Positions 1,909 to 64,000 of a DNA stretch of 64,000 bases are shown here, in pieces. The position numbers and the translations under genes are program-made. Source of the stretch: Flavobacteriaceae bacterium UJ101 (GTDB taxonomy: Bacteria > Bacteroidota > Bacteroidia > Flavobacteriales > UJ101). The stretch lies in NCBI GenBank assembly GCA_001880285.1, contig CP016269.1:2056501-2120500 (forward strand), read 5' to 3'. Below the pieces are notes generated by a model. The model worked only from the letters and a program-made list of their open reading frames with translations. It had not been told where the DNA came from and ran no database searches. The number at the start of each line of letters is the position of its first letter. The first letter of the stretch is position 1.

Positions 1909-4900
1909 ATGAGCAAAAAATTTAACGAATATAAGCAGCTAAGTTTAACAACTATAGCAAGCGAGATTTTAGAATACTGGAAAGAACATAATACTTTTGA
2001 AAAAAGTGTTGAATCCAGAGAAGGAAAAGATTCTTTTGTGTTTTATGATGGACCACCCTCTGCAAATGGAATGCCTGGAATTCATCATGTGATCTCTCGT
2101 TCGATTAAAGATATTTTTTGTCGTTATCAGACTCTTAAGGGGAAACAAGTAATGCGTAAAGCAGGTTGGGATACACACGGTTTACCTGTTGAATTAGGTG
2201 TTGAAAAGCAGTTAGGAATAACCAAGGAAGATATAGGGAAAACCATTTCTGTAACGGAATATAATGAAGCTTGTAAGAAATCGGTTATGCAATTTACCGA
2301 TAAATGGGCAGATATGTCTGAAAAAATGGGATATTGGGTTGATATGGATAATCCATATGTTACCTACGATTCGAAATATATGGAGACCCTTTGGTGGTTA
2401 TTGAAGAAGATTTATACTAAGAATTGGTTGTATAAAGGATATACCATTCAACCTTATTCACCTGCAGCAGGAACGGGATTGAGTTCTCATGAATTAAACC
2501 TTCCAGGCACGTATCGTGATGTAACTGATACTACTATTGTAGCACAGTTTAAGGCAAAGAAAATATCAACAGATTTATTTCAGAATATAGAGGGAGATGT
2601 TCATTTTCTTGCATGGACGACTACGCCTTGGACACTACCTTCAAATACGGCGTTAACTGTAGGAGCAAAAATTGATTATGTTTTAATCAAATCATATAAT
2701 CAATATACATTTGAACCTATACAAGTCATTTTAGCTGAAAATTTAGTAGGAAAACAATTTTCAGGAAAGTTTTTTGAAGCAGAATCTGATGAGGATTTTT
2801 CAAACTATGAGGCTGGAAATAAAAAAATACCATATCAAATAATTGAAAAATATAAAGGTTCTGATTTAGTTGGAATCGAATATGAACAATTGTTACCATG
2901 GACATTGCCTTATGAAGATGCTGAAAAAGCATTTCGTGTGATTGATGGAGATTTTGTTACAACAGAAGATGGAACTGGAATTGTTCATACAGCACCTACT
3001 TTTGGTGCAGATGATGCTTTTGTAGCTAAAAAACATGGAATACCACCTATGTTGGTTTTGGATGAAAACGAAAATCCTGTACCGTTAGTAGATTTGCAAG
3101 GTCGATTTGTAAAAACATTAAATAATGATTTTGCGGGTAAATATGTTAAAAACGAGTATTATAAAGAGAATGCACCCGAAAAATCAACTGATGTTGAAAT
3201 AGCTATTTTATTAAAAACAGAAAATAAAGCTTTTAAAGTTGAAAAATATGTACACAGTTATCCACATTGTTGGAGAACGGATAAACCAGTGTTATACTAT
3301 CCTTTAGATTCATGGTTTATTAAGGCTACTGCAGTAAAAGAACGTATGCAGGAGTTAAATAAAACCATTAATTGGAAACCGAAATCAACAGGGGAAGGAC
3401 GTTTCGGAAATTGGCTGGAGAATGTAAACGATTGGAATTTGTCTCGTTCTCGATACTGGGGAGTTCCTCTACCGATTTGGCGTACAGAAGAAGGTGATGA
3501 AGAAATTCTAATTGGATCAATAGAGGAATTAATACAAGAAATAGAAAAATCAATTCAAGCAGGTTTTATGACTGTAAACCCTTATCAAGGATTTGAAGTA
3601 GGAAACATGGACCAAGCAAATTATGAAAAAGTTGATTTACATAAACATATTGTAGATGCTATTGTTTTGGTTTCTTCAAGTGGTAAACCAATGAAGCGTG
3701 AAGCTGATTTGATTGATGTGTGGTTTGATTCAGGTGCTATGCCTTATGCTCAACACCACTACCCATTTGAAAATAAAGAATTAATTGATGAAAGAAAAGC
3801 ATACCCTGCTGATTTTATTGCAGAAGGAGTAGATCAAACAAGAGGATGGTTTTATACGTTACATGCTATTTCGACGATGGTTTTTGATCAAGTTTCATAT
3901 AAAAACGTAATTTCAAACGGACTAGTTTTAGATAAAAATGGTCAAAAAATGTCCAAACGTTTAGGAAATGGAGTTGATCCATTTGAAACCTTAGCTAAAT
4001 ATGGTCCAGATGCAACACGTTGGTATATGATTTCTAATGCACAACCATGGGAAAATTTAAAATTTAATATAGAAGGAATTGATGAAGTTCGTCGTAAATT
4101 CTTTGGTACTTTATACAACACATATTCATTCTTTGCTTTATATGCTAATTTAGATGGATTTGATTATGGAGAAGAAGTACTTGTGAAAAACCGAACAGAA
4201 TTAGACCGTTGGATTATTTCAGAACTCAATACATTGATAAAGAATGTTGATGCATTCTATGCCGATTATGAGCCAACACGTGCTGCACGTGCCATTTATA
4301 GTTTTGTAACTGACAATTTAAGTAATTGGTATGTTCGTTTGAATCGAAGACGTTTTTGGAAAGGAGAATATTCTGATGATAAAAGAGCAGCTTATCAAAC
4401 ATTATATACATGTTTAGTAACGATTGCTAAGTTAGGTTCTCCTATAGCACCATTTTTTATGGATAAACTGTATCAGGACTTAAATAAGGTTACCAATATA
4501 GAAGATTTTGAATCTGTGCATTTGGCTGATTTTCCTCAAGTAAATGAAGATTTGATTGATCAAGAATTACAAGAGCGAACACATTTAGCTCAAAAAATAA
4601 CCTCAATGGTATTTTCATTACGTAAACGTGAGCAAATCAAAGTGCGTCAACCTTTACAAAAAATTATGATACCTGTATTGAATCGTGAGTTGCATGATCG
4701 ATTAGAAATAGTTTCTGATATTATTAAACAAGAAGTTAATGTAAAAGAGGTAGAATTGCTTACCAATGAGGAAGCTTCTGGAATATTGGTTAAACAAATT
4801 AAACCTAATTTTAAGACATTAGGTCCTAAATTTGGTAAAAATATGAAACAAATAGCAGCTCGTGTTGCTCAATTTGATCAAGATATGATCAATAGTATTG

Positions 4901-5310
4901 AAGCAAATGGTGGGGTGATGCTAGAAATAGAAGGAGAAAATGTAGAGTTAACTCCAGAAGATTTTGAAATTTCGACCAAAGACATTGAGGGCTGGTTAGT
5001 AGCGTCAGAAGCCGGTTTGACGGTAGCTTTAGACATACAAATAGATGAAACACTAAAAGCGGAAGGTATTGCAAGAGAGTTAGTTAATAGAATTCAAAAT
5101 TTGAGAAAAGAAGCTGGTTTTGAAGTTAGTGATAAAGTTAATATATTGATACAAAATCAAGAAGCTATTAAAAAATCAGTTGATTTGTATCAAGATTATA
5201 TTTGTAACGAAGTTCTAGGTAAAAGTTTGCAATTAGTGGATTCAATTGAAAATGGCATAGATATTGATTTTGATGACATACACACAAAAATAGTATTAAC
5301 TAAAATTTAG
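1909..5310 (+). CDS. ileS: isoleucyl-tRNA synthetase
   Basis: Charges tRNA-Ile in the cytoplasm. At 1133 residues it is of the long form usual in Bacteroidota. The class I HIGH-equivalent signature is GMPGIHHV (residues 54-61), the KMSKR loop is at 680-684, and the CP1 editing domain lies between with the TTPWTLPSNTAL motif. An anticodon-binding domain follows KMSKR, and the C-terminal extension includes the REL-VNRIQNLRKEAGFEV segment typical of this type. The start is the ATG at 1909, the first in frame and about 35 bp after the candidate promoter. It heads a compact unit with the TraR/DksA-like gene (5-bp gap) and lspA, an arrangement common in Flavobacteriia. Confidence 0.98.
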   Translation: MSKKFNEYKQLSLTTIASEILEYWKEHNTFEKSVESREGKDSFVFYDGPPSANGMPGIHHVISRSIKDIFCRYQTLKGKQVMRKAGWDTHGLPVELGVEKQLGITKEDIGKTISVTEYNEACKKSVMQFTDKWADMSEKMGYWVDMDNPYVTYDSKYMETLWWLLKKIYTKNWLYKGYTIQPYSPAAGTGLSSHELNLPGTYRDVTDTTIVAQFKAKKISTDLFQNIEGDVHFLAWTTTPWTLPSNTALTVGAKIDYVLIKSYNQYTFEPIQVILAENLVGKQFSGKFFEAESDEDFSNYEAGNKKIPYQIIEKYKGSDLVGIEYEQLLPWTLPYEDAEKAFRVIDGDFVTTEDGTGIVHTAPTFGADDAFVAKKHGIPPMLVLDENENPVPLVDLQGRFVKTLNNDFAGKYVKNEYYKENAPEKSTDVEIAILLKTENKAFKVEKYVHSYPHCWRTDKPVLYYPLDSWFIKATAVKERMQELNKTINWKPKSTGEGRFGNWLENVNDWNLSRSRYWGVPLPIWRTEEGDEEILIGSIEELIQEIEKSIQAGFMTVNPYQGFEVGNMDQANYEKVDLHKHIVDAIVLVSSSGKPMKREADLIDVWFDSGAMPYAQHHYPFENKELIDERKAYPADFIAEGVDQTRGWFYTLHAISTMVFDQVSYKNVISNGLVLDKNGQKMSKRLGNGVDPFETLAKYGPDATRWYMISNAQPWENLKFNIEGIDEVRRKFFGTLYNTYSFFALYANLDGFDYGEEVLVKNRTELDRWIISELNTLIKNVDAFYADYEPTRAARAIYSFVTDNLSNWYVRLNRRRFWKGEYSDDKRAAYQTLYTCLVTIAKLGSPIAPFFMDKLYQDLNKVTNIEDFESVHLADFPQVNEDLIDQELQERTHLAQKITSMVFSLRKREQIKVRQPLQKIMIPVLNRELHDRLEIVSDIIKQEVNVKEVELLTNEEASGILVKQIKPNFKTLGPKFGKNMKQIAARVAQFDQDMINSIEANGGVMLEIEGENVELTPEDFEISTKDIEGWLVASEAGLTVALDIQIDETLKAEGIARELVNRIQNLRKEAGFEVSDKVNILIQNQEAIKKSVDLYQDYICNEVLGKSLQLVDSIENGIDIDFDDIHTKIVLTKI

Positions 5311-7553: not shown

Positions 7554-7674
7554 GTGATAGTGTTTAAATATTTATAAATTTTATAAGGTAGCACTAGTTG
7601 TACTTAGCTAATAGTGTGAGCTGATTTTATAAAAAAGTTGAGTTATAAAATCAATTCCTGAAAAGTAAAAAGGT

Positions 7675-8049
7675 TTATGGTATTATATTATAAAAGCATA
7701 ACTTTTTAAAGAGAATAAAAAGTTTAATTGAAAAGAAAGTGCAATGGAGTTTGTTATCAATTAAGCTAACTAAATTTTTATGAATTATTACTATGTAATG
7801 ATAAACTCCTTGTGTGTTAAAATTATTAAACTTAAAGTCTTTAGATGATGATAGGAAAAGAAATTCTTTGTAGAAAGCTATGATTTTTTCTCTATCAATT
7901 TCTTCTGCATAACAAATATTATTTTCTTTAGAAGAAACTATATCTGTATTTATGCTAATTGTTTTAGTGAACGTTAGATTAACAAAAGTAAATAATACAA
8001 TAGAGGAAATATTGAAAAAAATATAATATGTAATACTTTTGTTGTTCAT
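7675..8049 (-). CDS. hypothetical small exported or membrane-anchored protein
   Basis: I do not recognise this 124-residue frame. It has a hydrophobic N-terminus (residues 7-29, TYYIFFNISSIVLFTFVNLTF) that could be a signal anchor, then a polar stretch with few charges, then a Phe/Ile/Lys-rich tail that looks like read-through of AT-rich DNA. In favour of a real gene are the ATG start and a TAnnTTTG element 21 bp upstream (8070-8077 on this strand). Against it are the biased composition and the lack of any conserved motif. It lies downstream of porT in the same direction but 90 bp away. It could be a decaying remnant. Confidence 0.4.
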   Translation of the reverse strand: MNNKSITYYIFFNISSIVLFTFVNLTFTKTISINTDIVSSKENNICYAEEIDREKIIAFYKEFLFLSSSKDFKFNNFNTQGVYHYIVIIHKNLVSLIDNKLHCTFFSIKLFILFKKLCFYNIIP

Positions 8050-8069
8050 TTCATTGATAAGATATTATA

Positions 8070-8077
8070 CAAATGTA
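8070..8077 (-). promoter_or_regulatory. TAnnTTTG promoter element before the 124-aa hypothetical
   Basis: Reads TACATTTG on the minus strand, 21 bp before the ATG at 8049. It is enclosed by a 9-bp inverted repeat, CATTTCATT at 8047-8055 and AATGAAATG at 8092-8100. No -33 TTG is visible. Confidence 0.4.
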
Positions 8078-8138
8078 TAAATATTGTAATAAATGAAATG
8101 TTAAATTATATGAATAATAAAGACAATTAGAGTTAAAA

Positions 8139-8834
8139 TTATTCAAATTTCAAACTGAACATAATTGCTCTAGATCGTAAGTTTGATATTGATCCGTTCC
8201 AATAAGGATCCGTTCCAGGATTATCAGGAACCATTTCATCATTAATCATGAAGATTCCCTTAATAGCAGGTGTCATTTTAAATCGTTTAAAATATAATTC
8301 GACTCCAGCCTCAGCTTGCCAATTGAAGTTACTTTCTTTCATTCTAAAAATTCCTTTTGAAGCATCATCTTCTGTAGTTTCATTGGCTTGTAAATTACGC
8401 ATATAACCAATTCCTGCTGCAACAAAAGGGCGTACATTGTTCCATCGAGCTCCTCTAAAGTGAGCCAAGAAAGGAATATCTAAATAAGTTGATTTAACAC
8501 TAAATTCACGATCAGCTTCAGGAATATTTCCATTATCAAATGTGAGCGTTCTACTAACGAAATGTAATCCAGGCTCAACTCGAACATCTAAAAATTTATT
8601 AATATTCATAATTCCCATTAAACCTACCGAAAGACCAGTACTTCCTTTTACAATAACATCTGAACTTGCATTAGAAACAGGGTCTAATTTAAAGTCCCAG
8701 TTACTTAATCCAATATAATACCCCCAATTGAAACGTTTTTCAGATTCAAAATTTTGTAGATTTAAAATTTGTTCTCTTTGTCCGTAAAGACTAAGAGAAA
8801 ATACAAAACAAAGAGTTAAAATGATGTTTTTCAT
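8139..8834 (-). CDS. porT: PorT-like outer-membrane beta-barrel protein of the type IX secretion system
   Basis: 231-residue exported beta-barrel protein. A signal peptide (MKNIILTLCFVFSLSLYGQ) is followed by LNLQNFESEKRFNWGYYIGL, the characteristic PorT/SprT opening, and then alternating amphipathic strands including YLDIPFLAHFRGARWNNVRPFVAAGIGY. It ends in a Phe-containing strand (MFSLKFE), as outer-membrane barrels do. PorT is needed for T9SS secretion and gliding in related species. It is separated by 26 bp from ubiE upstream on the same strand, and the two are probably co-transcribed from the promoter at 9609-9616. I recall this ubiE-porT order from other Flavobacteriia. The T9SS link is supported by the sorting-domain protein at 46-48 kb. 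Confidence 0.85.
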   Translation of the reverse strand: MKNIILTLCFVFSLSLYGQREQILNLQNFESEKRFNWGYYIGLSNWDFKLDPVSNASSDVIVKGSTGLSVGLMGIMNINKFLDVRVEPGLHFVSRTLTFDNGNIPEADREFSVKSTYLDIPFLAHFRGARWNNVRPFVAAGIGYMRNLQANETTEDDASKGIFRMKESNFNWQAEAGVELYFKRFKMTPAIKGIFMINDEMVPDNPGTDPYWNGSISNLRSRAIMFSLKFE

Positions 8835-8860
8835 ATTGTATTAACGTGATTTACTGAAGA

Positions 8861-9589
8861 TTATTTTATTGAAGTATAAATAGCTGATATTCCAAAAGTG
8901 AGGTTTTTATTTTTTACAGATTTAAAACCACATTTTTTGATGATTTTAACCATTTTTTCTCCATATGGAAAAGCTTCTACAGATTCAGGTAAATAAGTAT
9001 AAGCTGAATTATCTTTTGAAAAGATCCGTCCAATATTAGGCAAAATGTTTTTAGAATAAAAACCGTATAGTTGCTTCATTGGAAATTTTTCAGGTTGTGC
9101 AAATTCCAAAATGATAAAAGTTCCACCTGGTTTTAATACACGATTAATTTCAGTTAAGCCTTTTTCAAGATTTTCAAAATTTCGTACACCAAAAGAAACG
9201 GTAATAGCATCAAAAGTATCATCTTCAAATGGTAGATTTTCAGAATCTCCCTGAATCATTTCAATTCGATTTTGTAACTCTTTTTCCGTTACTTTTTTTC
9301 GTCCTACTTCTAGCATTCCTGCTGATAAATCAAGTCCGGTAATCTGAGCTTTTGTATTTTCAGCAATCATAATGGCCAAATCGCCAGTTCCGGTAGCAAT
9401 ATCTAACACCTTTTCTGCTTGCAAAGACTGAATTTGTTTTACCACCTTTTTTCTCCATTGGATATCAATTCCCATAGATAAAAAATGATTTAAAAAATCA
9501 TATTTAGGTGAAATATTATCAAACATTTCAGCTACTTGCTCCTTTTTACTTTTGTCAGACTCTTTATATGGTTTTACGTTTGTGCCCAT
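8861..9589 (-). CDS. ubiE: demethylmenaquinone methyltransferase (UbiE/MenG)
   Basis: SAM-dependent C-methyltransferase that performs the last step of menaquinone synthesis. At 242 residues it has the family length. It shows the UbiE opening ([22 protein letters not shown], residues 19-40), SAM motif [11 protein letters not shown] (61-70), DLSAGML after it, the signature [10 protein letters not shown] (post-I region) and RVLKPGG. No ubiquinone genes are present, and menB lies at 27.3 kb, so the menaquinone role (MenG) is the natural reading. It is first in a unit with porT and is preceded on the minus strand by a perfect TATCTTTG element 20 bp before the ATG. Confidence 0.97.
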
Positions 9590-9608
9590 AAATAATTGTA
9601 TAATGCTA

Positions 9609-9616
9609 CAAAGATA
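9609..9616 (-). promoter_or_regulatory. TAnnTTTG promoter element of ubiE-porT
   Basis: Minus strand reads TATCTTTG, a perfect match to the flavobacterial -7 consensus, 20 bp before the ubiE ATG. A -33 TTG is not evident. Confidence 0.6.
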
Positions 9617-9711
9617 GAATAATTTGTAAGTTAGTCCTTAGAAACTAATTTATTTTTATTTTTGAATTAAACCTTTAGGGAATTTTATAGTCAAATAAAT
9701 AAATCGAATGA

Positions 9712-10278
9712 ATGGACGATAAAGAATTAGTCAGTCTGATCGTAGAGCAAGGGAAAGTAGATGAAGGGTTTAGAGTTTTACTCAAAACTTATCAAGAACG
9801 AGTGTATTGGCATATTCGTAAGATGGTTTATGATCATGATGATGCTAATGATATTGCACAGAATACGTTTATTAAAATTTATAAGAATTTAAATAAATTT
9901 AAAGGAGATTCGAAACTCTATTCATGGATTTATAGGATTGCGACAAATGAAGCCATTACGTTTATCAATCAGAAAAAGAAACGTGATGATGTAAGTTTTG
10001 AAGATGTAAGTTATTCATTAGCTCAGAATTTAGAAGCAGATGAGTTTTTTGATGGAGATGAAATAGAAGTTCTTTTACAGCAATGTATTGCCCAATTGCC
10101 AGAACAACAAAGATTGGTTTTTCAAATGAAGTATTTTGATGATATGAAATATGAAGAAATAGCAGAAGTTTTACAAAAGTCAATAGGAGGGTTAAAAGCA
10201 AATTATCATCATGCTGTAAAAAAAATAAAAGAATTATTGGAAATGAAAACGGTTAATAATCAAAATATAATACAATGA
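9712..10278 (+). CDS. ECF-type RNA polymerase sigma-70 factor
   Basis: 188-residue sigma factor of the extracytoplasmic function group. Region 2 is visible as YDHDDANDIAQNTFIKIYKNLNKF followed by SWIYRIATNEAI (about residues 38-85), and region 4 as LPEQQRLVFQMKYFDDMKYEEIAEVLQKS with the helix-turn-helix (about 125-165). The start at 9712 is used because an ATG four bases earlier (9708) is out of frame. Its last four bases overlap the ATG of the following membrane protein, the usual layout of a sigma/anti-sigma pair. Its regulon cannot be read from this window. Confidence 0.93.
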   Translation: MDDKELVSLIVEQGKVDEGFRVLLKTYQERVYWHIRKMVYDHDDANDIAQNTFIKIYKNLNKFKGDSKLYSWIYRIATNEAITFINQKKKRDDVSFEDVSYSLAQNLEADEFFDGDEIEVLLQQCIAQLPEQQRLVFQMKYFDDMKYEEIAEVLQKSIGGLKANYHHAVKKIKELLEMKTVNNQNIIQ

Positions 10279-10625
10279 ACGATTTAGATTTTAAACATAA
10301 AAAAGAAGTTTTTAAAGTTCCTAAAAATTATTTTGAGGAATTAGAACAGAATATTTTAGCTCAAACAGTTGATGCTAAGAAAGAAAAAGTAAAAGTGATT
10401 CCATTGAAGAACAAACGTTTCTATCTCTTTTCTTCAGTGGTAGGGGTTGCAGCAAGTTTATTATTACTAATTGGAGTGTTTTTTAACTCTTCAAAACAAA
10501 CTGCAATAACAGAAAATGATATTATTACTGCTGAAAATAGTATTTATAGCACATTATTAGGTGATACAACAGTAATTTCAGATGAAGAGCTATTGAGTTA
10601 TGATACGAATTATGTTTTTGAATAG
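10275..10625 (+). CDS. putative membrane-anchored partner (anti-sigma-like) of the ECF sigma factor
   Basis: 116-residue protein translated from an ATG overlapping the sigma stop by 4 nt. A cytoplasmic N-terminal stretch of about 50 residues (VPKNYFEELEQNILAQ) precedes one transmembrane helix (about residues 50-67, FSSVVGVAASLLLLIGVFF), then a short acidic periplasmic tail. The VPKNYFEEL opening is common to small membrane partners of ECF sigma factors in Bacteroidota. It does not show a zinc-binding anti-sigma motif (HxxxCxxC), so the anti-sigma role is inferred from gene order and topology only. Confidence 0.65.
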   Translation: MNDLDFKHKKEVFKVPKNYFEELEQNILAQTVDAKKEKVKVIPLKNKRFYLFSSVVGVAASLLLLIGVFFNSSKQTAITENDIITAENSIYSTLLGDTTVISDEELLSYDTNYVFE

Positions 10626-10635
10626 AATGTACTTT

Positions 10636-11328
10636 TTATAAAAATAATCGTGCTAAATAATCATAATGCTTGCCATCAAGAATTTTCTCACATTTAAATC
10701 CTGAATTTAAAGCAAACTTTTGTAATGTATCATAGTCGATATAGACCCAAGGAAAAGCTTTCCCTTGCTCTCCTTTATACGATAATTGAAAATCAACCTC
10801 ACCATAGTAATAATCAAGTTCAGATAACATTTCTTGTGGATACATATACATAATATCAGAAGAATCAACCAGAATTTGCCCGTTTTCGTTTAAAAGTGAT
10901 TTTAAATGATGTAATAAAAAAGGAAGATTTTCTAAATAACCACAAACACCTGCTCCATTCATCATCATCAATAAAGTGTCAAATGAAGTTTCATTAAAAT
11001 CATAAATACTTTGGTGAATGGCCTTTTTTATACCTCTTTTTTTACAAATTTCTATAGCTCCTTTTGAGATGTCTAAAGCTGTAATATCCAATCCTTTTTT
11101 TTGTAAATATAAACTATGACTTCCTGCACAACATCCAATGTCGAGCGTTTTTCCTTTACTCAGATCTAAAGCACGTTGTTCTATTGGAGGCATTTCTTGA
11201 TAGGGTCTGAATAAATAAGGTACAGGTAAAATATCATCTTCAGTGATATTAGTAGAATTGATAATGTCTTCCGTATAATTTCCTTCAAAATAATCTTTTA
11301 CTGCCTTTCCAAATATATCTAGGTTCAT
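10636..11328 (-). CDS. class I SAM-dependent methyltransferase
   Basis: 230-residue Rossmann-fold methyltransferase. Motif I is TLDIGCCAGSHSLYL (residues 61-75), followed by the ribose-binding acidic residue in ITALDISKGAIEICKKRG (82-99) and motif IV-like LLMMMNGAGVCGYLENL. The substrate is unknown. It converges on the sigma/membrane-protein pair (10-bp gap) and diverges from the YkgJ-like gene, with only 18 bp between the two start codons, so their promoters must overlap the coding regions. Confidence 0.85.
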   Translation of the reverse strand: MNLDIFGKAVKDYFEGNYTEDIINSTNITEDDILPVPYLFRPYQEMPPIEQRALDLSKGKTLDIGCCAGSHSLYLQKKGLDITALDISKGAIEICKKRGIKKAIHQSIYDFNETSFDTLLMMMNGAGVCGYLENLPFLLHHLKSLLNENGQILVDSSDIMYMYPQEMLSELDYYYGEVDFQLSYKGEQGKAFPWVYIDYDTLQKFALNSGFKCEKILDGKHYDYLARLFL

Positions 11329-11346
11329 TTTTACTATTTTTGTTGT

Positions 11347-11841
11347 ATGGATGATTTGTTGCGAGCATTACCTCAAAAAGCCAAAGATAAGAAAAAGGAG
11401 CATAAAGCATTTTTAGAAAAGCTAAAAAAGAAAAAACCAAAGAAATTAGATGTCATCATGAAAGATACTCATGAATCGGTTTTTGAAGAGATAGATTGCT
11501 TGAAATGTGGGAACTGTTGTAAAACAACAGGACCTCTTCTTATTCAAAAAGATATTGAACGAATAGCAAAGTTTTTACGTTTAAAGCCACAACAGTTTAT
11601 AGCAAAATATTTGAAAATAGATGAAGATCAAGACTATGTATTTCAATCGATGCCATGTCCTTTTTTAGGAGAAGATAATTACTGTTCTATTTATGAAGTT
11701 AGGCCAAGAGCTTGTAAAGAATTTCCTCATACGGATCGTAAAAATTTCTATCAGATTAATCAATTAACACTTGAAAATGTAAAGATTTGTCCTGCTGTAT
11801 ATGAGATTTTAGAAGAAATACAAAAGAGAATATCATTATAA
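11347..11841 (+). CDS. YkgJ-family cysteine cluster protein
   Basis: 164-residue protein with the conserved cysteine pattern of the YkgJ family (putative Zn/Fe-S chelating). Cysteines are C51, C54, C57, C58 (CLKCGNCC), C104 (MPCPFLG), C113 (YCSIYEVRPRAC) and C123. The N-terminal 35 residues are extremely lysine-rich. The biochemical role of the family is unsettled. A TATTTTTG element at 11335-11342 lies only 5 bp before the ATG, which would imply a nearly leaderless mRNA if used. The gene is followed 75 bp later by yaaA. Confidence 0.85.
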   Translation: MDDLLRALPQKAKDKKKEHKAFLEKLKKKKPKKLDVIMKDTHESVFEEIDCLKCGNCCKTTGPLLIQKDIERIAKFLRLKPQQFIAKYLKIDEDQDYVFQSMPCPFLGEDNYCSIYEVRPRACKEFPHTDRKNFYQINQLTLENVKICPAVYEILEEIQKRISL

Positions 11842-11892
11842 AAGAATAGAAAGAATAAATCGAAAACATTTTTTAAGCAAACAAAAGCATTG

Positions 11893-11900
11893 TATTTTTG
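11893..11900 (+). promoter_or_regulatory. TAnnTTTG promoter element of yaaA
   Basis: TATTTTTG ends 16 bp before the chosen yaaA ATG (11917). It overlaps no coding sequence. No -33 TTG is visible. Confidence 0.4.
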
Positions 11901-11916
11901 AGTAAAATTGAAAGAT

Positions 11917-54429: not shown

Positions 54430-55152
54430 ATGAGAAAGATTTTATTATTATCATTGATTATTATAGGGTTAATGATGTCGTCGGTAAATGCACAAGTAGG
54501 AATCGGAACGGATTCACCTAAGTCTGCATTAGATGTTGCAAGTACAACTTCTGGAATTTTAATTCCAAGACTAACAGCAACTCAAATTTTAGCTATTGAT
54601 AAAATAGCAGATCATAATGGAATGTTGGTGTATGCTACGGATACTTCTGGAGCTATAACCAGTACAGGTTTTTGGTATTATGATTCAGCTACGTCAGGTT
54701 GGAAAACAATGAGTACTGGATCTGGTGGTGGTGGAGCAACTCAAACTGTTATCTATGCTGAAACTTCAGGAACTGAAATAACAGTATCAGAAGCTACAGA
54801 ACAACAAATATTAACAGAGACTATTACACTTTCAGCAGTTAGTACAGTTGATGTAGAAGGAGTTTTAAATGTAAAGTCAAGTAATCAAAGTATTGTTCCA
54901 GAATTACGATTAGAAATTAAGGATGCAACGGATGCTGTAGTATTTACTAAAACAGTACGTAAAGGAATGTTGACAACTCCAACCGTTCAGTTACAAGATG
55001 ATTTAGGAATTTATGGAATAAAAGAAAATTTAGGTTCAGGAACTTATACTGTAAGTTTGTATGCTTCTCAACCTAGCTGTTGTAATGTTTCGGGATTATC
55101 TTTTGTAACAGGAGGTAGTGATACGTTATCTTTTATGAAAATTACGTATTAA
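54430..55152 (+). CDS. exported surface protein of the GIGT...SALDV type
   Basis: 240 residues. Signal peptide (MRKILLLSLIIIGLMMSSVNAQ) followed by VGIGTDSPKSALDVAST, an opening shared by many secreted Bacteroidota proteins, then GFWYYDSATSGWKTM and a Gly-rich hinge (SGSGGGG). The second half (about 110-240) is beta-rich (ITLSAVSTVDVEGVLNV, GTYTVSLYASQP) and ends in SFMKITY; it contains a Cys pair (SCC) near residue 217. No sorting domain is visible. Function unknown. It precedes a long non-coding region and the giant proteins. Confidence 0.75.
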   Translation: MRKILLLSLIIIGLMMSSVNAQVGIGTDSPKSALDVASTTSGILIPRLTATQILAIDKIADHNGMLVYATDTSGAITSTGFWYYDSATSGWKTMSTGSGGGGATQTVIYAETSGTEITVSEATEQQILTETITLSAVSTVDVEGVLNVKSSNQSIVPELRLEIKDATDAVVFTKTVRKGMLTTPTVQLQDDLGIYGIKENLGSGTYTVSLYASQPSCCNVSGLSFVTGGSDTLSFMKITY

Positions 55153-55530
55153 TACAGCATATTGAATTAATAAAAGATTAAATTTTTAGTCTAAACTTTA
55201 AAACACTATGAGAAATACATTTAAATGTTTTTTCTCTTCTTTTTCTTACTTTTTGTGATTTACAGAAAGTTAAATTCAAATTCTAAATGTTTTGGATTTA
55301 TGATTTAATTTAGTGCTTGACTATTGAAAGATGGAAGGATAATGATTGATCGTTTTACAATTATCCTATGATAGTTAAATAGAAACTAGGTTCAGACTAA
55401 TAAAAAATAGAAAATTTTAAAATGTTTTCTGTTTCCTAAGATGTAATAGAGAAGATTAGTTTTGGGGAAGACTAATTTTATAAAACGATATTATTCATAA
55501 TTAATATTACATTTTATATATAAAAAAAAC
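55153..55530. other. 378-bp non-coding stretch before the giant exoprotein array
   Basis: No plausible reading frame. It holds three weak hairpins: AGGATAAT/ATTATCCT (55336-55367), AGAAAA..TTTTCT around 55408-55430, and ATTAGT/ACTAAT around 55455-55478, with no T runs after them. It ends where the third-copy remnant starts (55531). Confidence 0.5.
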
Positions 55531-55554
55531 TCAAAAAGTAGAACAGTATTTAAT
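55531..55554 (+). pseudogene. 3' remnant of a third copy of the giant BNR/LamG gene
   Basis: These 24 bases match the 3' end of the 55.6-kb gene (59065-59088) at 23 positions and that of the 59.2-kb gene at 22. In frame they encode QKVEQYLI, the shared C-terminal end of both giants. They sit 12 bp before the shared leader, in the same relative position as the 3' end of copy 1 relative to the leader of copy 2. The simplest reading is a former upstream copy lost by recombination. Confidence 0.75.
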
Positions 55555-55566
55555 AATAAGATTCAT

Positions 55567-55714
55567 CTACAAAATTTTTAAGAGGGGGAATTTTTGTAAC
55601 GGATTAGACTATTTACCGATATAAAAAATGAAAAGTTTAAAACAATTACTTTTGGTATTGTTTCCAGTGTTATTTTTTTCACAGGAAATAGAACCAGACT
55701 TTATAAAAGAAATT
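55567..55714 (+). repeat. shared leader and signal-peptide block, copy 1
   Basis: Starts CTACAAAATTTTTAA, contains GGGGGAATTTTTGTAACGG, and runs through the first 29 codons of the 55.6-kb gene. Apart from a 2-nt length difference and substitution in the leader (AGA versus AATAA) and one synonymous change (TTG/TTA, codon 9), it is identical to 59123-59272. Confidence 0.95.
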
Positions 55715-58700
55715 CACAAAGAAGTTCCTAATTTAAGAATTTCAGATTCTTTGTTTAATCGTTATAAAGAAAAAAAAGAAGGAAAACCTTTAGGTTACTA
55801 CACGATATATTCAAAAGAAAAAGGTTTTATAAGTTATTGGCATTCGGAATATCATCATTGGAGAAAAGAACATTTACAATATGTTACAGCAGATGGCTCG
55901 GTAATAATCCCAACATCTAAAGAAATTGAAATTGAATTTAAAAAGGAAAGCCAACAAAGAATTCTTGTGAAAAATGAACGAGAAGCTTTGAAAAAAGCTG
56001 TTAGTAGAAAATCAGCTGTAACTTCTGTATCAACTACAACATGGAGTTATTTGGGGCCTAAAAATCAATATACCATCGGAGGAGATAAATTGAATACTCA
56101 AGTTAATGTTCAAGCCTTTGATCAATCATTAACCAATCGGGATTTATTGTACTGTGCACCTGAGGGGGGAGGATTATATAAAAGTAATGATAGAGGACTT
56201 ACATGGTCAGTAGCTAACCCAGATTATAATATGTCAAGTAGTCAATTTATTAAAATTCATCCTGATGATGATGATAAAGTAATTGCTGCAACAACTGGAG
56301 GTGTTATTTATTCCACTATTGATGGTGGAACAACTTGGAGGTCTGTTAGTTTACCTAGTAATCTTTCAGGGGTTTCGGGTCATAATGTTTATGCGATTAG
56401 TACAATGGAAATAATTCCTAAAGAAGGTACAAATCCAGCTAGAGTATTTATTTTAGGGAAGAATGGAATGTTTAATTATGATTTTGATACCAATACTGTA
56501 AGTGTTTCTACAGAACTTAATATTCGAGGATCTGAAATTAAAAAAAGTCCGAGTAATTCCAATACAATCTATCTTTTAGGATTAAATGAGACGACATTAA
56601 TAGAAGAACTGTATGTATCAATAGATAGAGGAAGTACATGGGTAAAGAAAGCCTCAAATGGTTATATAACGGTACCTACAGGGCAAACTAAAATTGTGAA
56701 TAGTAGAGGAGGAAGAATTGGATTAACTCCAGCAGATCCTAACCGAGTATATGTGTATTTAATAGGTGAATATGTGTCAGGTGATCCAGGAGGTTTTTTA
56801 ACCTTTATGAAGAGTGAAGATGGTGGAGAAAATTGGGTTATAACAGATCCTTTAGGCCCCGGAAAAGGAGGTGTAAATTATGAAAAAAATAATTTCACGA
56901 CAACGAAATCTCATGTGGCTTTATCAGCAGCTGGAAATGGGACGTATCATCAAGGTTATTATAATTCAGGTCTATTGGTAGATCAATTTGATGCTGACAA
57001 AGTTATTGCTGGAGGTGTAACATCCCATAAAACAGTAGATGGAGGTCTTAATTGGTCTATGGTAAGTAATGGATACATAGCAAGTAATGGAACCAGAATT
57101 CATTCCGATTTTCAATTTGGATTATCGAATAAGTTTGGAGCAGAGCAAGATAATTGGATTTGTAACGATGGAGGTATTGTTTATAGTACTAGTTTTTTTG
57201 GAAGCATAGGAACTGATAAGGTAGATACCAGAACGACTTATTTACCAACTGATTTTTGGGGGTTTGATGTAGGATTATTTAATAAAAATCTAACAGGAGG
57301 ACGTTATCATAATGGTGATGCAGCTATGACTTCTGCTTATAATGGTGATTTTATTTATGTTGGAGGAGCTGAAACTGATACAGGGTTGGTGCTTTTTGGA
57401 AGTGAAGAACGAGAAATGATGTGGAGAGATGCTACAGATCGAGTTATTCCTTCAACTCTTGGTGGTTCAGATGGTCAATCAAAAAGTAATTCTTCATATT
57501 ATCCAGGGGGACATCGTAGTAGTTATACGCGTCCAATGTTTGATAAAACGTTAACAGGAACTTTTTATTTTGGAATAGGAAAAAAAGTAATCAAATTTTC
57601 TCAAGATAAGAAGGGGATTGAATTGCATGAATTTGAAAATGAGTTGACTAATGTAGCTTCTTGTGCAACAAATGAAAATTATATTTATACCATTATGCAA
57701 GGTAAGGCAGGGTATTCTCCTTGGGATCGTGATGCTGTTAATCTTTTTAGATCAACAGATGGAGGTCTGAATTGGGAAAAAGTATACGAATTTCCTAATA
57801 ATAGTACCAATTGGCGTGGATATAATATTTTTGTTGATAATAAAAATCCATTACGAATATGGGCACACGCTAAATTAAATAAAAGCTTTTATGTAAGTGA
57901 AGATGGAGGAGAAACCTTTACTTCTTTAACAGATACTCCAGCTGGGGCATACAACATGGTATATCAATGGTCTTCTAATAATATTTATGCAGCAACAAAA
58001 GGAGGAGCCTATCGTTATGATATAGAAAATAATACATGGCATGAGTATGGAGATGGAATACCAGCCGGTTTAATACCTCATAGATTACAAGCCACTTATG
58101 GAGAAAAAAAGGTTATTTTATCTTCTGGAGGTTATGGAGTTTGGGAAGCTGATTTTTATTCGGAGTCAGATGATTATCCTGTTTATGCTACATTACAATC
58201 TGATATTATAGTTGGATATGATAAAACAGATGATTTTTCAATAACATATGATATTTATGGAGATGTATCTAAATATGACACTATAATTACTACAAATAGT
58301 TCAAAGGCTGTTATAAAGAATTTAGATAATGGTATACATAATATAGAGTTCAATGATTATGGTATTTTTGATGTTGTCTTAAAACTTACAGATAAAACTA
58401 CTGGAGAAGTTCAACAAGAAACCACAAAGAAATTTTATATATATCCTGGTTGTAGTTTTGATGATGATGAAAATGAAATACTCATTCCAATGGATAATGT
58501 TGCAGTATGGTTTTCAGGAGATGATTTATATCAATCTTATACTTTGCAAGGAGGATCTAATAGTGTATATGATAAATATGATTTAAATTATTATATATCA
58601 GGGTATTGTGATCCTATAACTTTTAATAAATATAATAATACAGAACATCGATCACTTTATTTTGATGGGACATATAATTGTAGAATGAATTTTAGTAAGC

Positions 58701-59113
58701 GTTATACAGAAGGAAAAACCTTTTTCTGGGTAATCAATGAAACTCCTGGTATAGGAAATCAAATTCGAAATTTATTAGGAGATGATACAGCTATAGATTT
58801 TCATGCAGGAGCTACAAATAATAAGAAGATTTTAAGATCACAAGCTGTAGTCAAGTTTGATTTAACTAAAATGAATGGCGCTGTAATTGACGCAACTACA
58901 ACGGATCGTCCTACCACACCTTCAGTAATTGGATTTAGAGTAAAAGATACGGAATCAGTTGCATTTTCTAATTTCTCAAAAGATCGAGGTTTTACCTCCA
59001 GATTATGGAAAGGAGATTTAGCGGAATTAATTATTTATAATAGGCGTCTTACAGATGAGGAGTTTCAAAAAGTAGAACAATATTTAATCAAAAAATATAA
59101 AATTAATAATTAA
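55628..59113 (+). CDS. giant exported BNR-propeller / PKD-like / LamG protein, copy 1
   Basis: 1161 residues. Signal peptide MKSLKQLLLVLFPVLFFSQ; Lys-rich N-terminal region with YYTIYSKEKGFISYWHSEYHHWRK; a propeller from about 138 (WSYLGPKN) with sortilin/BNR repeats such as GLYKSNDRGLTWS, YSTIDGGTTWR, SIDRGSTWVKK, FMKSEDGGENWV, LFRSTDGGLNWEKV and YVSEDGGETFT; a PKD-like beta domain at about 850-940 ending KKFYIYPGCSFDDDEN; and a LamG-like C-terminus (about 960-1161) ending AELIIYNRRLTDEEFQKVEQ. No standard T9SS sorting domain is visible, so the export route is open. Likely surface or secreted, perhaps glycan- or protein-binding. Paralogue of the next gene. Confidence 0.85.
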   Translation: MKSLKQLLLVLFPVLFFSQEIEPDFIKEIHKEVPNLRISDSLFNRYKEKKEGKPLGYYTIYSKEKGFISYWHSEYHHWRKEHLQYVTADGSVIIPTSKEIEIEFKKESQQRILVKNEREALKKAVSRKSAVTSVSTTTWSYLGPKNQYTIGGDKLNTQVNVQAFDQSLTNRDLLYCAPEGGGLYKSNDRGLTWSVANPDYNMSSSQFIKIHPDDDDKVIAATTGGVIYSTIDGGTTWRSVSLPSNLSGVSGHNVYAISTMEIIPKEGTNPARVFILGKNGMFNYDFDTNTVSVSTELNIRGSEIKKSPSNSNTIYLLGLNETTLIEELYVSIDRGSTWVKKASNGYITVPTGQTKIVNSRGGRIGLTPADPNRVYVYLIGEYVSGDPGGFLTFMKSEDGGENWVITDPLGPGKGGVNYEKNNFTTTKSHVALSAAGNGTYHQGYYNSGLLVDQFDADKVIAGGVTSHKTVDGGLNWSMVSNGYIASNGTRIHSDFQFGLSNKFGAEQDNWICNDGGIVYSTSFFGSIGTDKVDTRTTYLPTDFWGFDVGLFNKNLTGGRYHNGDAAMTSAYNGDFIYVGGAETDTGLVLFGSEEREMMWRDATDRVIPSTLGGSDGQSKSNSSYYPGGHRSSYTRPMFDKTLTGTFYFGIGKKVIKFSQDKKGIELHEFENELTNVASCATNENYIYTIMQGKAGYSPWDRDAVNLFRSTDGGLNWEKVYEFPNNSTNWRGYNIFVDNKNPLRIWAHAKLNKSFYVSEDGGETFTSLTDTPAGAYNMVYQWSSNNIYAATKGGAYRYDIENNTWHEYGDGIPAGLIPHRLQATYGEKKVILSSGGYGVWEADFYSESDDYPVYATLQSDIIVGYDKTDDFSITYDIYGDVSKYDTIITTNSSKAVIKNLDNGIHNIEFNDYGIFDVVLKLTDKTTGEVQQETTKKFYIYPGCSFDDDENEILIPMDNVAVWFSGDDLYQSYTLQGGSNSVYDKYDLNYYISGYCDPITFNKYNNTEHRSLYFDGTYNCRMNFSKRYTEGKTFFWVINETPGIGNQIRNLLGDDTAIDFHAGATNNKKILRSQAVVKFDLTKMNGAVIDATTTDRPTTPSVIGFRVKDTESVAFSNFSKDRGFTSRLWKGDLAELIIYNRRLTDEEFQKVEQYLIKKYKINN

Positions 59114-59122
59114 CAAGTTTAA

Positions 59123-59272
59123 CTACAAAATTTTTAAATAAGGGGGAATTTTTGTAACGGATTAGACTATTTACCGATATAAAAAATGAAAAGTTTAAAA
59201 CAATTACTTTTAGTATTGTTTCCAGTGTTATTTTTTTCACAGGAAATAGAACCAGACTTTATAAAAGAAATT
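59123..59272 (+). repeat. shared leader and signal-peptide block, copy 2
   Basis: Second copy of the block, from 9 bp after the stop of the 55.6-kb gene through codon 29 of the 59.2-kb gene. The leader has AATAA where copy 1 has AGA before the G5 run. Confidence 0.95.
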
Positions 59273-62200
59273 AATAAAGAGGTTCCAAACTTACGAATAG
59301 CAGATTCGCTATATAATCGTTATAGGGAGAGAAAAGAAGGCAAACCACAAGGATATTACACAGAATACTCTAAAGAAAAAGGGTTTATTGATATATGGCA
59401 TTCAGAATTTCATCATTGGAGAAAAGAAAATGAAGTGTTTGAAAATGAAGAAGGTTATATTATTATTCCAAAACTATCAGATAAAGAATTTGATCAAACA
59501 AAGAATAGAGCTAAACAAAAAAAACAGGTTGATCGAGAAATAAAAAGACAACAACGAAAACAATCTCGTAGTAACAAAACAGTTCAGGGAGTGACACCTA
59601 CAGTAACAAGTTTTACTTCTAGTCCAGATTGGACTTATATTGGCCCTAAAAATACGTACGGTACAAGTAGAGCTAAAATTGACTTACAAGCTAATGTTTA
59701 TAGTGTAGATCAGGCTCATAACAATCGTGATATACTTTTTTGTAGCGTAGAAGGAGCAGGTCTCTATAAATCAATTGATAGAGGTGATACATGGAGTGAA
59801 TCAACAATGAATATAAAATTATTAGCATCAGTTGAGAAAATAAAAATCCATCCTGAAGACGATAATATTATAGTAGGTGTAAGTAGTAGACAAATTATAT
59901 CAAGTGTAAATGGAGGACAAGATTGGCGTCAGGTTAGTATTCCCTCTAATTTAAGTAGACCGAGTGGTTATAGTACCTATGATATTGCTGATTTAGATAT
60001 TGTATACGATAAAACGACAGCTGGATTGGATGATGATTTTGCTATTGTGGTAGGGAGAAAAGGAAACTTTAAATTTAATATTATTGATAATACAGTTGAA
60101 GTCTTTACAGCACATAATATTCCATCATCAGATGTGAAAGTACATCCGAATAATTCTAAAGTGGTGTATATGTTGTCTTTTGATTCAAATACTTATACAG
60201 AGAAGATATATAAAAGTATAGATGGAGGAAAAACCTTTACAGTTAAGGATGCCAATGGATGGATAGCACCACCAGCAGGAGAAACGACAATAGTTCGTTC
60301 ACGAGGAGGGAGAATAGGATTAACCCCAGCCGATGATAATGTAATATATGTTCACATGATAGGTCAATATCTGAGTGATGATGATAAAGGTTTTTTAGGT
60401 ATTTATAAAAGTACAGATGGAGGTGACAATTGGCAATTGATGGATGTCAAAGGGCCAGGCTCATATGGAGGGCCTTATACATATGGAAGTAGTAACCTTA
60501 GTTTTACAACGTATGCAGAGCATGTGAATGTAGTTTCTAATGTGGGAGGAGGTTATCACCAAGGGTTTTATGATTCAGGAATTGTGGTAAATGCTGCTGA
60601 TCCAAATGAAATTATAGTAGGAGGAGTTGGGATTTTTAAGAGTATTGATAGTGGAAAAACTTTTAAAATGCTATGTAATGGTTTTGTTTATTCTAATGGT
60701 CCAGCTAATAGGGTACATTCTGATATACAGTCATGTTTTAGTCGTGTAAATGAATTGGGAGAAGTTGAAACTTGGATTTCAACGGATGGAGGAATAAGAA
60801 TGAGTAAAGATTTTTATGAAAATGTAGCAGCAAGTGAACGAAAGACAACAGGATTGAGTTGTGATTTTTGGGGATTTGATGTAGGGATATTTAATAAAAA
60901 TATGGCTGGAGGACGTTACCATAATGGAAGTATGGGAAGTCTAGCCGATTATAATGGGGATTTTCTATATGTAGGAGGAGGAGAATCAGCTACTGGAGGT
61001 GTTTTAATTGGTAATGAAGAGCGAGATATGATATGGGATGATGCCGGAAATAAAACACTTGATTCCAGTAGTATTACAGGAAGTCACTCAGGTCTCGGAG
61101 GAATATCCATTTATCCTATAGGAAGTGCTGGGAACTCTTTAGCTGGAATGGCCAAAACCTTAACAGGAGTATTTTATTATGCGAATAAGAGAAATAATAA
61201 AGAATTATATAAAACCTATGTAAATGAGAATGGAGGTTATAGTCAATTATTATTAAAGACATTTGATACCAACATACGTTATGTAGGGACCTGTGCTACG
61301 AATGAAAATTATATTTATGCTACGGTTATGGATAGTGGAAACCGAGCAAGAGAATTATATAGTTCAACAGATGGAGGAATTAATTGGAATAAAGTATATG
61401 ATTTTAGAGCCAACTTTAGTGCAAGTAATCATGTTCATATAGAAGTGGATAATGATGATCCTAAAAAAGTATGGGCCTATATCTATAGACAAGGAAAACT
61501 GTTTTATAGTGAAGATGGAGGAAATACTTTTGTTCAAAAAGCTTCTATCCCTACGAATCGAATTGATCATTTAGTATATCAATGGTCCTCTAATAATATT
61601 TATGGTATGACTCGAGGGAATCCACAAATCCACCGTTATGATATAACGAATAATACTTGGCATGAGTTTGGTTCTAGACTACCTGAAACGATTGATAATT
61701 TTAGGTTGGGAATTACCTATGGTGAAAAAAAATTAATACTAGCTACCTCAGGACATGGTGTTTGGGAAAAGGATTTATACAGTGATTCAACAACTGATCC
61801 AATCTATGTAGCTTTAGATGCCGATCTTATTATTGGATATGATAAAACAGATTCTTTTAATGTAGACACTACAATTTATGGAGATGATTCAAATAAAACA
61901 TTGAGTTGGGAGACCAATAATACCAGAGCTACTATTAATGTAGCAGCTGATAAGAAGAGTGCTCAAGTAACTTTTAATGATTTCGGTATTTACGATGTCG
62001 TTATAAAAATTACAGATAATGATACAGGAGCTGTTCAACAAGTCGTAAAAAAGTTTTATATCTATCCAGGTTGTAGTTTTGATGAAAGCGAGAATAAAGT
62101 ACTCATTCCAATGGATAATATTTTAACATGGTTTGATGCCTCTGATGCGACTAAAGAAGGGAGTAATTTTTACGTTAAAGAAAAACGAACCAATAAAAAG

Positions 62201-62746
62201 TTCAAATTAAGAAATGATGGATGTAAATATTCAACAATAGATGATTTTGTAAAGCCCAATTATAATAATAGTTCTTTTAGTTCTTTATATTTTAATGGTA
62301 GAAATTTTTGCGCTTTACCATTTGATAGAACTTATACAGAAGGGAAAACATTTTTTTGGGTATTGAATCAAACAGATGGAACATTTAGTAGGAATCGTTT
62401 TATTTTAGGTGATGGACAAAAGAATGATTTTGCAACAGATGGAGCTACTAAAAAACAGATTTTAGCAAGTTCTAGAGATTTTGCTTTTGACTATGCTAGT
62501 TTAAATGGTGTTAAGTTAGCAAGAGCATTTGATGGAGCAAAGCCAACTACAGCAGGAGTAATTGCATTAAGAAATAATGGAACGGATCCTGTACAGTATA
62601 ATTCCTTTAGTAGAGATCGAACAGCTTATACTTCTATTTGGAATGGTCATTTAGCAGAACTCATTATTTATGAAAGAAGATTAACAGATGAAGAAATCCA
62701 AAAAGTAGAACAATATTTAATTAAAAAATATAAAATAACACCTTAA
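59186..62746 (+). CDS. giant exported BNR-propeller / PKD-like / LamG protein, copy 2
   Basis: 1186 residues, same domain order as copy 1. After an identical 29-residue start the two diverge to roughly half identical residues by eye. BNR repeats include GLYKSIDRGDTWSE, SSVNGGQDWRQV, KSIDGGKTFTVK, YKSTDGGDNWQL, FKSIDSGKTFKM, YSSTDGGINWNKV and YSEDGGNTFVQK. The PKD-like segment ends KKFYIYPGCSFDESEN and the LamG-like C-terminus ends AELIIYERRLTDEEIQKVEQ. The N-terminal region is very basic (KKQVDREIKRQQRKQSRS). An independent hairpin terminator follows, closing the array. Copy 1 has no terminator before copy 2, so they may be co-transcribed or driven by the repeated leader. Confidence 0.85.
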   Translation: MKSLKQLLLVLFPVLFFSQEIEPDFIKEINKEVPNLRIADSLYNRYRERKEGKPQGYYTEYSKEKGFIDIWHSEFHHWRKENEVFENEEGYIIIPKLSDKEFDQTKNRAKQKKQVDREIKRQQRKQSRSNKTVQGVTPTVTSFTSSPDWTYIGPKNTYGTSRAKIDLQANVYSVDQAHNNRDILFCSVEGAGLYKSIDRGDTWSESTMNIKLLASVEKIKIHPEDDNIIVGVSSRQIISSVNGGQDWRQVSIPSNLSRPSGYSTYDIADLDIVYDKTTAGLDDDFAIVVGRKGNFKFNIIDNTVEVFTAHNIPSSDVKVHPNNSKVVYMLSFDSNTYTEKIYKSIDGGKTFTVKDANGWIAPPAGETTIVRSRGGRIGLTPADDNVIYVHMIGQYLSDDDKGFLGIYKSTDGGDNWQLMDVKGPGSYGGPYTYGSSNLSFTTYAEHVNVVSNVGGGYHQGFYDSGIVVNAADPNEIIVGGVGIFKSIDSGKTFKMLCNGFVYSNGPANRVHSDIQSCFSRVNELGEVETWISTDGGIRMSKDFYENVAASERKTTGLSCDFWGFDVGIFNKNMAGGRYHNGSMGSLADYNGDFLYVGGGESATGGVLIGNEERDMIWDDAGNKTLDSSSITGSHSGLGGISIYPIGSAGNSLAGMAKTLTGVFYYANKRNNKELYKTYVNENGGYSQLLLKTFDTNIRYVGTCATNENYIYATVMDSGNRARELYSSTDGGINWNKVYDFRANFSASNHVHIEVDNDDPKKVWAYIYRQGKLFYSEDGGNTFVQKASIPTNRIDHLVYQWSSNNIYGMTRGNPQIHRYDITNNTWHEFGSRLPETIDNFRLGITYGEKKLILATSGHGVWEKDLYSDSTTDPIYVALDADLIIGYDKTDSFNVDTTIYGDDSNKTLSWETNNTRATINVAADKKSAQVTFNDFGIYDVVIKITDNDTGAVQQVVKKFYIYPGCSFDESENKVLIPMDNILTWFDASDATKEGSNFYVKEKRTNKKFKLRNDGCKYSTIDDFVKPNYNNSSFSSLYFNGRNFCALPFDRTYTEGKTFFWVLNQTDGTFSRNRFILGDGQKNDFATDGATKKQILASSRDFAFDYASLNGVKLARAFDGAKPTTAGVIALRNNGTDPVQYNSFSRDRTAYTSIWNGHLAELIIYERRLTDEEIQKVEQYLIKKYKITP

Positions 62747-62769: not shown

Positions 62770-62796
62770 AAAACCACTCATTTTGAGTGGTTTTTT
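62770..62796 (+). terminator. intrinsic terminator of the giant array
   Basis: AAAACCACTCA / TGAGTGGTTTT perfect 11-bp stem, 3-nt loop, T run. Confidence 0.9.
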
Positions 62797-62835: not shown

Positions 62836-64000
62836 ATGAATAGAAAAATTATAATCTCAGTTTTACTTTTACTAAGTGGATCATTAGTTTATAGCCAGAA
62901 AGATGGCGGAATGTGGCAACCTCAAAAATTGGAAGCCAATAAAAAGGAAATGAGAAAATTAGGGGCAAAGCTTAAACCTTCCGAAATCTATAATGAAGAA
63001 AAAAGCTCGTTGAAAGATGCTATTGTTCATTTTAATAGAGGTTGTACAGCAGAAATCATATCTCCAGAAGCATTATTATTAACCAATCATCATTGTGGTT
63101 ATGGTCAAATACAAGCACATTCAACCGTTGAAAATGATTTACTTAAAAATGGTTTTTGGGCAAAAAATAATAAAGAAGAACTAAAGAACGAAAAGCTAAC
63201 CGCAACATTCATTGTTTCAATTAAGGATGTTACAGAAGATGTTTTGAGAGGAGTTTCTTCTACAATAAGTGCTGTACATCGAAATATGTTAATTGATAAT
63301 AACATACGCAATGTACAAGAATTGATAAAAAAAGAACCTTGGCAAGATGTAGAAATCAAACCCTTTTACAAAGGGAATGAATATTATGCTTTTATTACTG
63401 AAACTTTTAGAGATGTTCGTTTAGTAGGGGCTCCACCACAAAGTATAGGAAAATTTGGTTCGGATACTGATAACTGGATGTGGCCACGTCATTCAGGTGA
63501 TTTTGCACTTTTTAGAATATATGCAGATCAAAACAATCGTCCGGCAGATTATTCAGAAAGCAATGTTCCCTATAAACCAAAACATTTTTTACCCATTAAT
63601 GTTGGTGGTATAGAAGAAGGTGATTTTACTATGGTTTTTGGTTTCCCAGGACGTACAAATGAATATCTACCTGCTAGTGCAATTAAACAAGTAAAGGAAG
63701 TTATAAACCCTGCTCGAATAGAAATTAGGGAGACAGCCTTAAATATTTTAGATAAAGAAATGCGTAAAGATGATGCAACACGTATTAAGTATGCATCTAA
63801 ATATGCAAGAACAGCAAATTATTGGAAAAAATGGAAAGGAGAAAACCTTGGGTTGGAAAAAAGTAAAGCCATTCTTAAAAAAGAGAAATATGAATGGGAC
63901 TTTCTTAAAAAAGCGGAAGGGAACACAGAGTATGTAACCGTTTTACCTAAAATGGAAAATCTATATGAAGAAATAGAACCGTATACATTAGCAAAAGTAT
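62836..64000 (+). CDS. S46-family dipeptidyl-peptidase (DPP7/DPP11-like), 5' part
   Basis: 388 residues are visible of an enzyme of about 710-720. Signal peptide (MNRKIIISVLLLLSGSLVYSQ), then KDGGMWQPQKL, the S46 opening. Catalytic His is in LLTNHHCGYG (H86) and catalytic Asp in DNWMWPRHSGDF (D222); the nucleophilic Ser and the residue that separates DPP7 (Gly) from DPP11 (Arg) lie beyond the window. S46 peptidases remove dipeptides from extracellular peptides in asaccharolytic Bacteroidota. It does not share a transcript with the giants because of the intervening terminator. Confidence 0.95.
   Translation, partial: MNRKIIISVLLLLSGSLVYSQKDGGMWQPQKLEANKKEMRKLGAKLKPSEIYNEEKSSLKDAIVHFNRGCTAEIISPEALLLTNHHCGYGQIQAHSTVENDLLKNGFWAKNNKEELKNEKLTATFIVSIKDVTEDVLRGVSSTISAVHRNMLIDNNIRNVQELIKKEPWQDVEIKPFYKGNEYYAFITETFRDVRLVGAPPQSIGKFGSDTDNWMWPRHSGDFALFRIYADQNNRPADYSESNVPYKPKHFLPINVGGIEEGDFTMVFGFPGRTNEYLPASAIKQVKEVINPARIEIRETALNILDKEMRKDDATRIKYASKYARTANYWKKWKGENLGLEKSKAILKKEKYEWDFLKKAEGNTEYVTVLPKMENLYEEIEPYTLAKV

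Follow-up and report, generated by a model that had tools for sequence, protein, structure and literature searches.

A fragment of gene tail ahead of two giant tandem genes in Flavobacteriaceae bacterium UJ101, probably copied from the junction between them

In this study, we asked how a short piece of DNA matching the 3' end of a giant gene came to lie upstream of a tandem pair of such genes in Flavobacteriaceae bacterium UJ101, and whether it records a third gene copy lost from the array, as a sequence-only reading had proposed. The window, that is, the whole stretch of DNA analyzed, comprises 64,000 nucleotides (contig CP016269.1, positions 2,056,501 to 2,120,500, forward strand), and coordinates refer to it unless another locus is named. 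Our findings support a model where the junction between copy 1 and copy 2 was, judging from sequence comparison, most likely duplicated upstream of copy 1 in recent times, long after the two genes had diverged. The locus is organized as follows.

55153-55530, no strand: intergenic upstream DNA, 21% G+C, unrelated to the giant genes and with a single match in the genome.
55531-55554, plus strand: 24-bp piece equal to a giant-gene 3' end (QKVEQYLI in the genes), 23/24 to 59065-59088; left end of the tract.
55555-55582, plus strand: degraded copy of the inter-gene spacer, with short deletions relative to 59089-59140 (small indels, whose gap placement in the alignment is not unique) and CTACAAAATTTTTAA kept at 15/15.
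55583-55627, plus strand: shared leader of copy 1, 45/45 identical to 59141-59185 ahead of copy 2.
55628-55714, plus strand: copy 1 codons 1-29, the region of the signal peptide, which agree with copy 2 at 86/87 positions and close the tract on the right.
55628-59113, plus strand: copy 1, an open reading frame for a 1161-aa secreted-type protein with Sortilin-Vps10/BNR propeller repeats and a weak lectin-like C-terminal end.
59065-59272, plus strand: the copy 1/copy 2 junction (copy 1 end, spacer, leader, copy 2 codons 1-29), likely source of the tract.
59186-62746, plus strand: copy 2, a 1186-aa paralogue of copy 1 with 48% amino-acid identity.
62836-63999, plus strand: S46 peptidase gene, marking the end of the array and extending past the window.

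Copies 1 and 2 form a head-to-tail pair, each with a signal-peptide-like start and Sortilin-Vps10/BNR propeller repeats, and their ends bear a weak likeness to a concanavalin-A-like (Laminin_G_3) domain (E 0.03, under the curated cut-off). Since the unrelated S46 peptidase gene begins at 62836, the array has exactly two members. A strong hairpin, terminator-like on the minus strand in the scan and T-rich on both sides, lies 3' of copy 2 (62770-62794); the spacer between the copies holds none comparable, and the two genes may thus be co-transcribed.

The piece at 55531-55554, TCAAAAAGTAGAACAGTATTTAAT, shares 23 of its 24 bases with the copy 1 3' end (59065-59088) and 22 with the end of copy 2 (62698-62721). 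This match exceeds chance. Over 300 dinucleotide-preserving shuffles of the upstream DNA, the best 24-mer match to the 3'-terminal 150 nt of copy 1 reached at most 20/24, and over 60 such shuffles compared with the whole of copy 1 at most 21/24. Across the 3.07-Mb genome, four sites carry the 24 bp with up to three mismatches, namely the upstream piece and the 3' ends of three family members, while a reversed control at the same threshold finds none. Alignment, shuffles, and genome-wide site count thus bear out the sequence-only reading as to the match itself, and its view that a family gene's 3' end here marks a rearrangement is supported. No occurrence upstream of an unrelated gene was found in this genome, all four sites belonging to the family. 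The shared leader said to follow the piece is also present, 55567-55627 being the same leader as the one before copy 2. Outside the tract, the gene bodies share no exact run longer than 23 bp (59066-59088 and 62699-62721), and that run is the same tail block, with limits almost those of the upstream piece. Further to the left, no remnant of another copy appeared: the gene-family profile detected none at 55153-55530, a stretch found only once in the genome, and against the six frames of 55153-55627 it recovered the known tail only (E 0.03). Short-word BLASTN of the upstream DNA returned AT-rich alignments of about 60%, on both strands, in the locus of a distant paralogue, which we did not take as homology.

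The 24 bp are the left end of one tract, 55531-55714, matching 59065-59272, the existing junction between the two genes. From the leader rightwards, 55583-55714 and 59141-59272 are identical at 131 of 132 positions, in exact runs of 71 and 60. By segmentation, identity outside the tract is 30% on the left, and on the right falls at once to 74% and then to ~51%, so that both edges are sharp, at 55530/55531 and at codon 29/30. A sharp-edged block of high identity inside diverged paralogues, as seen here, is expected of a gene conversion tract. The tract is not uniform: the tail and spacer hold ~4 substitutions in 52 positions plus indels, by hand count on a gapped alignment, against 1 in 132 for the leader and codons (Fisher p = 0.023). 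Greater change in tail and spacer is expected if selection acts on the leader and codons alone; two events of differing age fit as well. For the leader itself, no third copy was found in the genome, and an Rfam search of 55100-59400 left it without a match at E <= 1. In comparisons with first 60 and later 395 genomes from the order, the leader DNA gave short AT-rich matches only; the three examined look unrelated, the best seemingly in coding sequence, and were taken as chance.

The tract is far younger than the gene duplication, since its codons are nearly identical and the gene bodies nearly saturated. In codons 1-29, 27 of 28 synonymous codons are identical, compared with 296 of 503 beyond (Fisher p = 1.4e-5). 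Codon usage alone predicts an agreement of ~0.54 for the gene bodies, and the proximity of the observed value to this figure indicates that they are near saturation; the chance of at least 27/28 arising from codon usage is ~3e-7. In the spacer block to the left of the leader, identity is likewise complete (15/15), which is unexpected in an old non-coding junction. The third family member, alone ~466 kb away and 38% identical to copy 1, has a different leader and start, and the identity of the tract is thus not a family-wide constraint.

How was the junction copied? We favor a single event of one-ended gene conversion from the copy 1/copy 2 junction, to which we assign a probability of roughly 0.55. 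It would have started from a break, or an incoming fragment, at the 5' end of copy 1, with strand invasion at the homologous 5' coding part of copy 2, where the right edge corresponds to codon 29/30. With the junction as template, copying would have run leftwards past the start codon and across leader and spacer as far as the 3'-terminal bases of copy 1; the left end would then have met the upstream DNA at 55530/55531 in a joint lacking homology. Copy 1 would thereby have acquired copy 2's leader and signal peptide, leaving 24 bp of gene tail stranded upstream, and the spacer beside it would later have decayed by small deletions. Direction, the number of events, and mechanism are here inferred from the pattern of matches. 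A gene tail set against unrelated DNA at the left edge implies a non-homologous joint in any model. Three observations weigh against conversion in one event: at only ~74%, present-day identity in the anchor region would suit RecA poorly; divergence is higher on the spacer side than in the leader and codons, as two events of differing age could produce; and the 24 bp nearly coincide, for no evident reason, with the longest run (23 bp) that the gene bodies share exactly.

Joints of this kind have precedents. Recombination that is homologous at one end and illegitimate at the other is documented in Streptococcus pneumoniae, Acinetobacter baylyi, Pseudomonas stutzeri, and E. coli (PMC3240628). The UJ101 tract resembles this homology-facilitated illegitimate recombination, in which one end is homologous, the other is joined without homology, and resident DNA is replaced (PMC3240628); its right edge lies in homologous coding sequence (74% beyond) and its left against unrelated DNA (30%). 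It differs in that the template was probably the cell's own or a sister locus and the tract is ~0.2 kb. Moreover, most documented joints show 3-10 bp of micro-homology, whereas here the replaced upstream DNA is gone. Gene conversion in a bacterial tandem pair is documented for PE_PGRS17 and PE_PGRS18, where, as here, local sequence became common to tandem duplicates (PMC1762029); that history was drawn from many isolates, while ours comes from one genome and has its left end outside homology. Related recombination models have also been proposed for type VI effector and Rhs loci with displaced gene ends (PMC5361080). There too, gene ends are stranded at an array by a proposed one-ended recombination, but those remnants lie downstream and derive from displaced modules (PMC5361080), whereas the 24-bp tail of UJ101 lies upstream and matches the resident gene.

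Was there, then, a third copy? The sequence-only reading saw no reason for non-coding upstream DNA to match a C-terminal coding segment. The existing copy 1/copy 2 junction, with the same order of parts, supplies one: it is a sufficient source, and so a third copy is not needed. Nor does a scar left by recombination between repeats describe what is seen. When an array loses units by unequal crossing-over, they go entire and a hybrid gene remains; a scar so formed would not consist of a 24-bp tail beside unrelated DNA. The idea of a deleted former copy is accordingly weakened, with a sufficient junction and no further remnant, though a transient third copy is compatible with the sequence. In its best-surviving form, which we regard as a serious if rather unlikely candidate, a recent unequal crossover between 5' ends would have produced an array of copy 1, a hybrid 2/1 gene, and copy 2, after which an illegitimate deletion took the first gene except for ~50 bases at its 3' end, the present copy 1 being the hybrid. 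This predicts the exact tract, how recent it is, and where it stops on the right (codon 29/30), in fact the same sequence as one-ended conversion in a single event, but it takes two steps, including an illegitimate deletion, when a single step is enough, and neither a third copy nor a larger remnant is present.

An older loss appears improbable. Here an ancestral array of at least three genes would have lost its first member early, and copies 1 and 2 would later have been homogenized across leader and signal region. The 24-bp block is conserved among old paralogues anyway (23/24 between copies 1 and 2, three mismatches in the distant one), so that 23/24 alone is no proof of recency, and a spacer more diverged than the leader agrees with such a history. 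Yet it requires three steps, leaves no other remnant upstream, and does not lead one to expect the 15/15 agreement in non-coding spacer.

The identical leader at the start of both genes could also suggest that no recent exchange took place and that strong selection (on a promoter, an RNA element, or the signal peptide) keeps the leader and codons 1-29 the same. We consider this very unlikely, given that the distant paralogue lacks the leader, that the leader belongs to no Rfam family, that the match also covers the gene-tail piece and non-coding spacer, and that 27/28 synonymous codons are identical up to an abrupt edge. A chance origin, or derivation from some unrelated gene whose C-terminal end is similarly lectin-like, is hardly credible: the tail bears a resemblance, below cut-off, to the terminal part of the common Laminin_G_3 domain, but shuffles never attain 22/24, the sequence is confined within the genome to family members, and position and order agree with the copy 1/copy 2 junction.

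Elsewhere in the genome, a second tandem pair of large genes lies at ~967 and 974 kb (L093:1158-5126 and 7576-11907; also L091:3158-7126 and 9576 onwards). These encode 1322 and 1443 aa, the first being Vps10-type with a Por_Secre_tail domain, and a 611-aa gene lies between them. The pair is mosaic: ~2.4 kb from the start codon are mostly 95-100% identical, with dips to ~77-83%, and the rest is ~50%. From these sequences, exchange between tandem paralogues seems to recur in this genome. No gene-tail piece was seen by eye upstream of the second pair. Inside the 611-aa gene, at L091:7430-8644, there are several tandem repeats of ~290 bp, 66-80% alike; upstream of the distant paralogue of the giant genes (L055, minus strand, ~4720-5090), two similar AT-rich stretches of ~90 bases are apparently repeated, as judged by eye. 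Two scans of named genomes confirmed no relatives of the giant genes, and relatives at the level of the order match them in the propeller core, not at the ends.

The tract also has a consequence for the present array. Copy 1 is flanked by a 132-bp direct repeat with one mismatch (55583-55714 and 59141-59272), and recombination across it would, as computed, delete 3558 bp, remove copy 1, and leave an open reading frame that encodes exactly copy 2. Because the repeat could excise copy 1 so cleanly, copy-number variation at the locus is plausible, and constitutes a testable prediction. A bolder proposal, that tandem giant surface-protein genes repeatedly have their 5' ends (the leader with the signal or N-terminal portion) reshuffled and that the repeat serves as a switch adding or removing copy 1 in the population, with copy 2 always intact, is one we hold to be quite improbable. 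Overall, the cause is likely to be ordinary recombination between tandem paralogues, and when part of a gene tail lies upstream of a tandem array, an existing junction between the array's genes may have supplied it, without any copy having been lost.
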